Both the position numbers and the translations under genes were made by a program. Below the pieces are notes generated by a model, which made no database searches, was not told the DNA's origin, and saw only the letters and a program-made list of their open reading frames with translations. DNA of 64,000 nucleotides from Rhodamnia argentea (taxonomy: Eukaryota > Streptophyta > Magnoliopsida > Myrtales > Myrtaceae), in the NCBI RefSeq assembly GCF_020921035.1, contig NC_063156.1:25840283-25904282 (forward strand), given 5' to 3'. How positions within the stretch are numbered: position 1 is the stretch's first letter; every line of letters begins with the position of its first letter. Below, one piece after another: positions 8,542 through 13,610 of the stretch.

Positions 8542-8757
8542 GCCTTCTTCCGGAAATTTATCTCGCTCGGTCGAAGCTCGTGGATGAACAAGTAGAATCT
8601 GGCTTTCTTCGAGCAAAAAGTGGGGGAAATGCCGCGGTGTCTCGTTCGATTTCTTCCTGCCTGGACGCCATTGGAGACGAAAGAGATGCGATGCGACTGT
8701 GAAGGGACGTTATGAGGTCGAGTGGGACGTTCTCATCTCGACTCGCGGCGGTAAATC

Positions 8758-9190
8758 CACACGCGCAGATGATGGTCCGGCGATTGGTGATGAGATGAAA
8801 ACTTAAATATGGGAAAAAAGGTATCATACCTAATATTTTTGTATAACGCTCATTTTAATAATAATAATAATTTTTTTATTACTTATATGATAAATCAGAG
8901 AAAAAAATGATCATTTAAATGTCAATCTGATCAAACGGCACACGTGGTTTTTGCCAAGAACCGCCCTTACATTGTTGGAATCGGGCCGGTCAACGGGCCG
9001 GTTCCGGGCCCACGGTTCATTTTGGCCATCTCTACGCGCAGATGATGGTCCGGCAATTGGTGATGAGATGAAAACTTAAATATGGGAAAAATGATGCCCA
9101 ATAGTCAATATTCATGTAATGACGCTCACTTTAATAATAAATCGGAAAAAAAATGATTATTTAAATATCAATTCTAATCAAACAACACAA
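8758..9190. repeat. Direct duplication of host flank plus transposon left end
   Basis: The stretch starting ACGCGCAGATGATGGTCC at about 8760 recurs at about 9034 with one mismatch over its first 55 bases. Beyond that both copies continue with diverged versions of the same transposon arm (GCTCA[TC]TTTAATAATAA, then AAATGAT.ATTTAAAT). About 80 bp of unrelated GC-rich sequence separates them. The right copy belongs to the element at 9085-10268. The duplication lies immediately upstream of the gene starting at 8541. Confidence 0.8.
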
Positions 9191-10277
9191 GTGACATTTT
9201 TTATTAATTTTTTAATAATTTGTGAAATTTTTTTTAAGAAAAGTCAGTCCACATGGCGTCCATGTGGCAACTTTTTTTAAAAAGTCGATTCACATAGATG
9301 CCGTGTGTAATATCTTTTTTACAAAATAAGCTAAGATATTTTTAAAAAATAAAAATAAAAATTTAGCTAAATAACTTAAAAAAAAGAATTTGATGTTACG
9401 GCGCCAAGCGCTCCTCAGCCCTCGCTGCTCACACCATTGCCAGCAATGGCCTACGAGGGTGGGGGGATGGCTGTGGGGCCTTGCCATCATTGATCCGGGT
9501 GAGGTCCAGCCTCACCGTGGCCGAGCGAGGCCAACCTCACCCAATGACAGCCGGGTCTCGCCCCCGTTAGGTCTGGCCAGCTTCTCCACATTGTAAACCT
9601 CAGGGTTCTGCTTGTGCAACCGATAAATCTCCGCCTTCTCAGTGTCCTTCAAATATGGCCCTCTAGCCCCTGGTTTCTGCACTTGCTTCAACAACACGTT
9701 GATTTCGCACAGCCTCTCGCCCCAAACATCCATTGACGCCCTGCTCTTCCTGTTTTCTTCGTCCATTTCTCTCAACCTATGCTCGATTTCTTGTAAATTG
9801 AAGATCATCATAGACTGGTAAGGGTTCGAGTTGAGGTTTTGACAAGGGATTGTGCTCACTTAGATCTGCGATGGCGAGGTCTTGCCATCCTTGGTGCTGT
9901 TTCGTTTGCGGCCGGTGGGGGTCGCCACTCAGCGACCTCGTCGGCCATCCTCCACCCTTGCTAGCCATTGTTGGCCATAGTGGGCGGAGGCAGCGAGGGC
10001 TTCCAAGCCTTGGCTGCTACAACACAGTTTTTTTTTTCTATTTAATTTTTTAGTTTTTAGTTTTTTTTACTTTTATTTTTTTTTTAATTGCTCACTTGAA
10101 AGTTTCGGCGAGCCACATAGATACCACATCAAATTTCCGGCGAAACTCACTGCAGTTAGCACTAAAATAATTATTTTTTAAAGAAACAACACTTAAGTGA
10201 TCCCCCAAAAATTAATACTAAAGTGAGCTTCGTACACAAATATTTACACTCATAGTGTCCTTTTGCCCTTAAACATG
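9076..10277. mobile_element. Pack-MULE-like foldback element carrying a host gene fragment
   Basis: The element body is 9085-10268. Flanking 9-mers are TTAAATATG (9076-9084) and TTAAACATG (10269-10277), 8 of 9 identical, the target-duplication length of Mutator-like elements. The ends are inverted: the left arm runs through GCTCACTTTAATAATAAAT, and the right arm read in reverse runs through GCTCACTTTAGTATTAAT. Arms are AT-rich. The interior (about 9400-10020) is GC-rich and contains the coding fragment at about 9575-9840. There is no transposase, so it would depend on an element elsewhere. Confidence 0.7.
9572..9842 (-). pseudogene. Captured host coding fragment inside the Pack-MULE-like element
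   Basis: An uninterrupted minus-strand reading frame gives about 90 residues of normal-looking protein, including EIEHRLREMDEENRKSRA, DVWGERLCEINVLLKQ and DTEKAEIYRLHKQNPEVYNV. It stops abruptly where the GC-rich transposon core begins (after EKLA). The EIYRLHKQNPEVY stretch reminds me of plant proteins of the eukaryotic mitochondrial regulator (Bot1-like) family, but I hold that only weakly. The absence of introns over the block and the sharp edges fit transposon capture of one or more exons. It cannot encode a complete protein. Confidence 0.6.
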
Positions 10278-10642: not shown

Positions 10643-13610
10643 GAGGTAGTTTTAAATTTTGATGGTTTTTGCCATTTCTTAATTACGAAGCTACAACAAA
10701 TGTCGTTAGGATGTGCATGGATCTTGGTCTAACTCGGAAATCAAGCCGATCGTTTTTGAGTTGTTCCATGGAATCGGTCCGATTTTTAATTTTTAAGGAG
10801 GAGCCGTACCGATCGAAACAAGGGAAAAACAAAACACGATCAACGAGGGCAAGACAAAACCCTCAGATAGTAACAATCCTCAAAAGCCAGAACTTCTCCT
10901 CTCACCTAGAGCAAGTCATGCTCAACTTTAATGCCTAGTATTAACAAAGTAGCCATCCTGACGAGTGCTTAGCTAAATTCAGGATAAGGACAATATAAGG
11001 GCCATAATTTTCATACGATGATCACTTAAGTGCCTTATCTTATTTTTTGATTGCTTTAAGTGCCACAAATTATAGAAAAAATCACTAGAGTGCTAAATTT
11101 TTTAAAAAATTCATTTAAGTGAGCGCCGCACAAAAGTTATGTCACTTATGGTGTGCTTTTTCTACCAAATTTACAAGATGGGGGCACAACTTCCCATAGT
11201 AACAATATATGTGTCATCATTGCGTGATTTTGCAACTCGAGGGATCTTGAATAGCAGGTAAGAAGGAGATAAGAGTTTGAGCTACAATTGATTCAAGCCT
11301 TGTCGGTATAGTTACTTCTAGTGGGCACCGTAGGTTCTAGGGTGGATAAGGTCGGTTTTGAGTTCCATAAATGGGGAATCGACCCTATCCAATATGGTTT
11401 CTAGTTCTAGAGTGGGATCGACCTACCTCGAAATCGATTACTCCTAAATGGCACCCTATAATTTTTACGAGTACAGAAAAAATGACATAGTTGTCATCCT
11501 TTCCCAAAGGACATAGCCTTATATATACATACACAACTACTCAAGCTCGTACTTGAAATAAACCATAAAAGATTTTACACTTGTCCTAGTTATTGCTAGC
11601 TGCAAAGCTTGAAAATCATATAAGATATAACCACAATTCAGTGAATAATACATATATTTTCTAAGCGGATCGAGCATATTTGCGAAATAATTTCAAAATT
11701 CGTTTATTTAAATCCGATATGTAATATATGTACAATACCAATGGCATTATGTCATTCCTACATAGCTATATACATAGCGTACTTGCTCATTCAAATTGTA
11801 TCAAATCAAAACTCCATTGCTCATTTTCTATCAAATCATACATCTATTGATCATTCCAAGACCCGATATCCAATCATGGCCACGCCCAACGCCTTACGAC
11901 AAGGGCAACCAAGTTCTCATTGGGTAGGTCTGCACCTATATCTACGTGGCTCGACCCACGAGGTATCTTGAAATTAGTATGCATACCCATATAGACCTCA
12001 ATCGGTTCATAGCTACAAAAGCATCAAACCACTAATGAATTTAGCATTCCGTGTCATAAATCAAATCTATACACGAAAGCAAACGACCTTTGATAAATCA
12101 GCGCACTAATTTGAATATATCTTACAAGACATATCTCAAATTATTTCAAAATTAATTTATAAACTAGGTTTACACATCAATATGCATAATCTTTAGCAAT
12201 TCTTTTCATAAAACGTTTCTCACCATTGCCAAACAATCAAAACTAGTAAACGCTCAATTCGACTTTATACAATAGATTTGCCATTTCATATCTCATGATA
12301 TATCCAAGTCATGTCGGTTTTCAAAACACGAGTTTACAAATTTATTTAAGGGATAAGCACCACTACTAAAGACCAAATCGGCGACCTTGAATCGATTTTT
12401 AATAGCTAACTCTCCCTCTTATGTCGAAAGGAGCATTTTAAACTATTCACTATCTAAGGCTATTGAGGTGAGCTTAGGGTGCGTTTATTTCGGTAAAAAT
12501 TGAATAATTTAAAAAATATTTTTTCTATAAATAATCGTTTATATAACTTGAAATAGTTAATCGATGGAAATATTTATATTATCGATATTTATATTATCGA
12601 TAACAAATTATGTCTAAAACATTTTCACAAATAATAAAAATAATTTATATTAATATGTTTTTGTAAAAAATAATAATTAAATAATAATTTTTAAATAATT
12701 TATTCCGCGCAAAACTAATGGAGGCATATTCGGATAGAATTCTTTTGGGCAAATGACATGTGTCCAGCGTCAATGTTTTGTTTCAGCAGGCAAACGGGAT
12801 TCGTGTCTTATTCCGAGCATTTCCATGCACTAAGCCAATTATTTATTATAATTTGTTGGTAGGTCTAATTGTTACGTTCTGCTCTCCTTAAATGCTACGG
12901 CAACATTACATACTTAATTTCGCGCATTTCTTTACATTGACAAATCGGGTTCTCAGGAAAAGAACAGAAGCTAATAATCCAGTTCGTTTGACTTCAGATC
13001 CGACCAGTTGAAGCCGATGAGTCCGTTGAAGCTGATAAAACCAAACCCGAAAAGCTACACAATTTACGTTTAGACATTACCTTGTATAGCGAAAATATTT
13101 TTGTTTATTTATTCTTATAAGCGATACAAGTGACCATTTTTATAAAAACTTTTCTTAGATCGCTTTTTTTTTTTCACGAAATAAACGGAGTTAGTGTCGG
13201 TTTTTTTTTATTGCCCGAGACTTTTTGTGGATCTTCATGTTCGGAGCTCTTTAGCAACACATGCATCAAAGGATAGCTCACCGTGTCAAAGAGTCGTTCC
13301 TCCTCGTACTTTTGCCGGTTCCAGAAAAAAATTTTGCGACGCTTGCATTTTGACATTGTAAAAACTCGAAATCTTATTTCGCAGGAAAAGAGAAAAAGAA
13401 AATCACTCGAGACATTTCACAAAGCACAAATATCTGCACAAACGCTCACATCTATTTTTAATAAATTTTCAACTTTGGATAATGTATTAAATGTGGAGGA
13501 AAAGCTTAAAGATATATACTCTTCTTTACTTAAATTTTGATTCTAAAAAGACGAGCACTCAGCCGTTCCTGGAATCCATCCGACCAAAAAAACAAAAAAA
13601 AAATCAGATG
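10643..13610. other. Gene-free, transposon-derived stretch
   Basis: No credible gene is seen. At 10960-11170 there is arm-like sequence with repeated 'cacttaagtgcc' phrases, like the ends of the element at 9085-10268. At 11280-11460 is a decayed hAT-like stretch with ggtcggtttt-type words. At about 12477-12727 lies a probable MITE with inverted ends (GGTGCGTTTATTTCGG on the left, a decayed complement ending CCGCGCAAAACTAATGG on the right) around an AT-rich centre. The rest is anonymous AT-rich sequence. Confidence 0.5.

Follow-up and report, generated by a model that had tools for sequence, protein, structure and literature searches.

Gene capture by Mutator-like elements (MULEs) is well known, and plants also carry foldback elements dominated by inverted repeats, such as FARE in Arabidopsis and Tnr8 in rice, to which the element described here can be likened by description only. 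MULEs are characterised by target repeats of 8-11 bp and by long ends (PMC6446971), and the acquisition of gene pieces by Pack-MULEs has been described as not yet understood (PMC3310237). In animals, single-copy Pack-TIRs have been attributed mostly to transposition-independent gap filling, with breakpoints skewed towards the inside of elements; this in-place filling prefers nearby donors, and the plant case of capture by gap filling was left open (PMC8277862). For capture within foldback elements, at least one precedent exists in animals, the Drosophila foldback Pack-TIR Ssk-FB4, which is present in several copies and is reported to be expressed and under selection (PMC8277862). Among root-knot nematodes, the Tm1 Mutator/foldback family has a transposase-encoding member that resembles the Phantom subclass; its authors suggested that it acquires host sequence, and the sections of that paper considered here describe no exon fragment for which a donor gene was identified (PMC3169594). 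Finally, some MULEs carry multiple terminal inverted repeats (TIRs), and one such family includes a gene fragment (PMC3310237).

The locus described here lies in a window of Rhodamnia argentea DNA (the whole stretch analysed, 64,000 nucleotides at C7:25840283-25904282), and the genome searched amounted to 346.7 Mb in 74 contigs. An element of 1183 bp occupies positions 9085-10267 of the forward strand of the window. Like Pack-MULEs, it is non-autonomous and combines long inverted ends and a 9-10-bp target repeat with a piece of a host gene that lies elsewhere in the genome. Unlike Pack-MULEs, it has a core that is a long palindrome shared by its family, the fragment sits near the centre of that core and is single copy, and a partial search found no transposase belonging to the family. 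With Ssk-FB4 it has in common the capture of gene sequence by a foldback element, for which template switching was proposed in the Drosophila case (PMC8277862), but it differs in residing in a plant, in existing as one copy and in apparently decaying. Target repeats in the 8-10-bp range and what look like foldback-type composite ends are points of resemblance to Tm1 (PMC3169594), for whose transposase-encoding member the partial search found no counterpart in the family here. An extra copy of one end, at 8812-8946, recalls the MULEs with multiple TIRs (PMC3310237), although our locus additionally shows a duplicated outer flank, and its two ends are separated by foreign repeat DNA.

The limits of the element were set by the family TIR consensus, GGCAAAAGGACACTAGGAGTGTCAATATTTGTG, relatives being present elsewhere in the genome. 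An earlier note on this DNA had given the span as 9076-10277, which is nearly exact; in the register of the family consensus, the element proper is 9085-10267 and its final base is 10267. It is flanked by a target-site duplication of 10 bp, CTTAAATATG on the left (9075-9084) and CTTAAACATG on the right (10268-10277), identical at nine of ten positions. The flanking repeat had previously been taken as 9 bp matching at 8/9; the repeat is real, and only its length and score change. By our own arithmetic, with equal base frequencies, a match of at least 9/10 at two fixed places arises by chance about 3 times in 100,000, an estimate that rises in AT-rich DNA. The right terminal inverted repeat (10142-10267, reverse strand) reads GGCAAAAGGACACTATGAGTG inward and agrees with the family consensus, with 81.5% identity over 130 columns. 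Its left counterpart (9085-9196, forward strand) is more worn and has a gap relative to the consensus. The inverted ends proposed earlier are thus borne out, as is the GC-rich core, which a 50-bp GC profile places at approximately 9403-10028.

At least 107 pieces matching the family were found in the genome, with 40 of 833 candidate places scored. The family terminal repeat starts with GGCAAAAGGACACTAGGAGTGTCAATATTTGTGTACG in an alignment of 39 end rows, made up of both ends of 18 loci and three ends from the window; the ends of locus L020 stayed in this alignment although L020 is a different, related element. A pattern search allowing up to three mismatches located 57 genome copies of a 37-base end (25 forward and 32 reverse), and the reversed control gave none under the same conditions. 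By eye, a CACTTWAGTGCCAAT-like unit is repeated within family ends. Twenty-five relative loci were considered (L003-L028 minus the parent locus L009). One end was missing from L003, L006, L010, L018, L021, L027 and L028, which served as comparison sequence only, and L020 was excluded from the scan for core inserts, its best end pair being that of the related 395-bp element; the scan set was therefore the element and 17 both-ended relatives, 18 members in all. With target repeats scored as the best among several offsets and lengths, nine of these 17 relatives have a perfect repeat of 9-10 bp (one, that of L007, is a run of T) and three more match at 9/10, which makes 12 with at most one mismatch; in the remaining five the repeat is weaker or shorter. 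The two ends of the relatives pair at 71-84% over 63 to 144 columns, a pairing that is weak in the element itself, the left end of which is worn. A literature search of general scope, rather than one aimed at mS45 or at the family sequence, returned no report of this TIR family.

Within the core, positions 9574-9857 on the reverse strand carry 94 codons without a stop that match C1:420670-420953 at 86% identity (245 of 284 bases, no gaps, E 3.5e-91). Roughly 90 antisense codons had been noticed here from the sequence alone, and they are real, with the extent now 9574-9857 instead of 9572-9842. A DNA search of the genome with the piece alone, using a method that skips very common words, returned two places only, the piece and its parent. 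At the protein level, the search yielded the parent, the copy and one distant paralog, an mS45-like reading frame at C5:5871604-5871867 that shares 41% identity with residues 138-236 of the parent exon. The parent gene, on a different chromosome from the copy (C1 as against C7), reads as an exon of 238 codons, then an intron with GT and AG borders, then the beginning of exon 2. The exon encodes the mitoribosomal protein mS45, as judged by its matches to the plant proteins 6xyw_BD (E 1.9e-63) and 9evs_e (E 5.5e-62). A Pfam match to MRP-L20 (PF12824) scored 16.7 bits, below the cut-off of 30.4, and was not used.

Both borders of the piece fall inside exon 1 of the parent, and no part of the second exon is included. 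When the 30 bp outside each border are compared with the parent without gaps, only 9/30 and 11/30 bases still match. A tblastn match to the parent continues for about 32 bases past the right border, running through a stop codon; we take this to be chance similarity of GC-rich DNA, but because the match runs on, the right border may be about 32 bases off, and both borders were measured against diverged relatives. The coding stretch does not end at the edge of the core, as had been thought, since 9403-9573 and 9858-10028 are largely family core. To the left of the piece, the inner GC-rich core (9472-9573, forward strand) is mostly family-like, and comparison with family members identifies 9858-9943 (forward strand) as inner GC-rich family core to its right. 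The earlier reading of a Pack-MULE-like element with a host exon fragment gains support from these results: the same genome holds a single close, intron-containing parent, and the DNA alignment to that parent stops within the core on both sides and does not run past the core borders. The element thus holds in its interior host-gene sequence whose parent has been identified, and its 1183 bp consist of the ends, the family core and the captured mS45 fragment, a size and content from which we take it to lack a transposase of its own.

The hairpin shape that had been proposed for the element is also confirmed. A long core palindrome has its left arm at 9344-9471 and its right arm at 9944-10065 (both listed on the forward strand), which pair at 69%, and a single-strand fold of 9344-10065 (722 nt) beats 20 of 20 shuffles (z = -7.0). 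In the left part of the element, a subterminal imperfect palindrome at 9197-9360 pairs at 67% over 164 columns, and its fold beats 200 of 200 shuffles (z = -4.9); relatives have such a palindrome too. Most of the element therefore folds on itself, the property by which foldback elements are recognised. A core inverted repeat or arm pair spanning at least 250 bp was present in ten of the 14 elements listed, namely the element itself and L005, L007, L012, L013, L014, L016, L022, L023 and L024, the core arms of L007 being weak (59%), while L004, L011, L015 and L017 have shorter inverted repeats only. Long core palindromes are thus a family trait, and the hairpin architecture is not peculiar to this element.

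Where the mS45 piece sits in that palindrome could be examined in several ways. A blind scan of the 18 members for stretches of at least 60 bp found in at most one other member picked out 479-765 (element numbering) in the element, essentially matching the piece at 490-773. Three of three relatives aligned better with the element when the piece was left out (L005, 575 to 691; L012, 575 to 695; L022, 611 to 678), which is a weak test because the relatives are shorter than the element anyway. When the piece was removed in silico, the remainder gave one self-complementary alignment over approximately 260-700 (472 columns, 60.6%, E 3e-16), whose centre, at about 480, is some 9 bp from the joint at 489. 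Excising 284 bp at 30 places (29 and the true one) gave palindrome scores that peaked at 490 (79.7 bits) and 489 (71.1 bits), with 61.1 bits or less elsewhere. In all seven relatives on which the joint was mapped, its distance from the palindrome centre is 0.5 to 44.5 bp, these seven having been picked out of the 17 for their long core palindromes. By our own arithmetic, a random place would come as close to the centre as about 9 bp roughly 2% of the time on a 900-bp element, and roughly 6% of the time if captures were confined to the GC-rich core. The near-central position, being that of one event in one element, is suggestive only.

The same scan returned two other members, L019 and L007, with core segments of at least 60 bp shared with at most one other member, and in both cases gene capture was considered and rejected. 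The L019 insert (L019:1191-1582, about 390 bp) is a nested copy of another repeat found at no fewer than 40 genome places including itself (40 scored of 414 candidates). Three other places, L069, L070 and L071, also contain the L007 core, and no gene was recognised by eye in the translations of these cores. Oriented positions 399-759 of L007 represent a second core type of the family, of about 360 bp. L069 has this core as a full sibling of L007 (74.65% over 1215 columns), and at L070 and L071 it is not accompanied by clear family arms. A central position is not evident for the L007 core insert, the joint of which falls 13 to 169 bp from the centres of the same seven relatives.

We consider it probable that 9085-10267 is an old, non-autonomous, foldback-shaped Mutator-like element into which a piece of mS45 exon 1 was patched at a break in its palindrome. 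Under this proposal, a Mutator-type transposase would have catalysed transposition in trans, and the palindrome would have been extruded or have stalled replication. A break near its tip might then have been repaired by template switching, in which a stretch of the mS45 exon was copied as filler before synthesis returned to the element; the piece would not have been amplified after its capture and would since have decayed without function. A more general idea, that the palindromic core acts as a capture device whose tip breaks, is patched with exon DNA and so sets the position of captured sequence at its centre, we put forward only tentatively. The location of donor and copy on two chromosomes counts against in-place filling, which in animals favours nearby donors (PMC8277862).

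The strongest competitor is that the piece was acquired during transposition, through gap repair after excision or through fork stalling and template switching, and that the finished chimera was then inserted. In its favour, the 10-bp target repeat flanks the whole chimera, but the repeat would look identical if capture had come after insertion. The inter-chromosomal donor is also more easily accommodated here, in view of the nearby donors of animal gap filling (PMC8277862), while the single-copy state of the piece speaks the other way, single-copy cases in animals being mostly transposition-independent (PMC8277862). We regard capture during transposition as a possibility to be taken seriously, but not as the favoured one.

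The left edge of the element offers a second alternative. The left terminal repeat occurs once more, as a solo third TIR, at 8812-8946 (forward strand); this copy matches 9085-9190 at 84 of 102 aligned bases and is possibly part of a longer structure with three TIRs. The mobile element would then be larger and begin at 8812, as in the three-TIR (type 3) elements of tomato (PMC3310237), and the presence of this left-end copy with the same CTTAAATATG before it is what one would expect. However, a 51-bp flank is present twice, at 8761-8811 and 9034-9084 (50/51 identical), the second copy repeating the outer flank directly before the inner end. Positions 8974-9035, between the two flank copies and thus between the two ends, are a piece of another high-copy repeat, and in the tomato case the inner ends were without a recognisable target repeat (PMC3310237). 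On this evidence, a larger three-TIR element is unlikely, and 8761-9091 looks like patchwork repair at the left edge of an element that begins at 9085. The terminal repeats that follow the two flanks are only 82% alike, so that flank and terminal repeat within 8761-9091 do not match in divergence. Two further repeats were seen nearby. The repeat at 8600-8732 recurs at 82-88% in four other copies (two on C1, one each on C2 and C9), and at approximately 10981-11163 a stretch of about 180 bp has family-like terminal repeats inverted at both ends and is probably a worn, short relative of the element.

We infer that the family is Mutator-like from the length of its target repeats and from its ends, and the name MULE rests on these traits because a partial search found no transposase near family ends. 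No family TIR was found within 1.5 kb of 30 transposase loci, and no transposase was found within 20 kb of the 57 best TIR ends or of 38 members (150 of 474 candidates scored). The 10-bp duplication around the element, with nine of ten bases identical, falls in the 8-11-bp range of MULEs, and long terminal inverted repeats are present in the relatives and weak in the element. The family could instead belong to another DNA-transposon superfamily with 9-10-bp target repeats, a placement with which the failure of the partial search to find a Mutator-type transposase with these ends would agree. Since target repeats of 8-11 bp together with long ends are traits of MULEs (PMC6446971), we think such a placement quite improbable.

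Next we turn to the fate of the copy. The 39 differences between copy and parent are distributed 12, 11 and 16 over the three codon positions. From parent to copy, 19 are C:G to T:A and 8 are in the opposite direction, and the number of CpG sites is 18 in the parent and 9 in the copy, with only 4 of the 18 parental CpGs reading TG or CA in the copy. Loss of CpG and an excess of C:G to T:A changes are expected of methylated transposon DNA. At the protein level, 21 residues differ between copy and parent, 16 of which can be compared with two solved plant mS45 sequences: nine changes fall on the copy, two on the parent and five can be assigned to neither.

It might be supposed that the captured piece is functional, either as a conserved peptide or as the source of hairpin small RNAs that regulate the mS45 parent, and we consider this very unlikely. 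The 94 codons are open, but the frame stays free of stops in 17% of random sets of 39 changes, so that its openness says nothing in favour of function. The pairwise dN/dS of 0.25, taken over both branches, is low for a plainly neutral copy and led us to consider selection on the copy, which we rejected: relative to a neutral copy, the excess of silent changes fails to reach significance once the transition bias is 2 or higher (for a bias of 2, P is 0.10 to 0.28) and is borderline when there is no such bias (P 0.03 to 0.12). A lost paralog that served as donor in place of today's parent would also explain the low dN/dS. Nine of the 11 changes that can be assigned to a side are on the copy, at residues where both solved plant mS45 proteins agree with the parent. 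Strong folding of the element speaks for function, but the copy and its parent share a single identical run of at least 21 bases, 23 bp long. Overall, the copy looks near-neutral, decaying and non-functional. Least probable of all is that the piece is a processed, RNA-derived mS45 insertion into the element: it contains no intron, but it is wholly within exon 1, and for this reason intron content is uninformative and cannot separate DNA from RNA capture, while the second exon is absent and both borders are intra-exonic.

Capture inside a hairpin had been singled out as unusual for this element. The near-central position of the piece is indeed noteworthy, but capture as such has foldback precedents in Ssk-FB4 (PMC8277862) and in what was suggested for Tm1 (PMC3169594). 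Taken alone, the element adds a further, apparently non-functional example to the gene fragments carried by transposons. What deserves more attention is that the piece lies so close to the palindrome centre. With many relatives that are empty and one that holds a clear capture there, the family is one in which plotting capture positions across the genome could put the hairpin-break route to a direct test.
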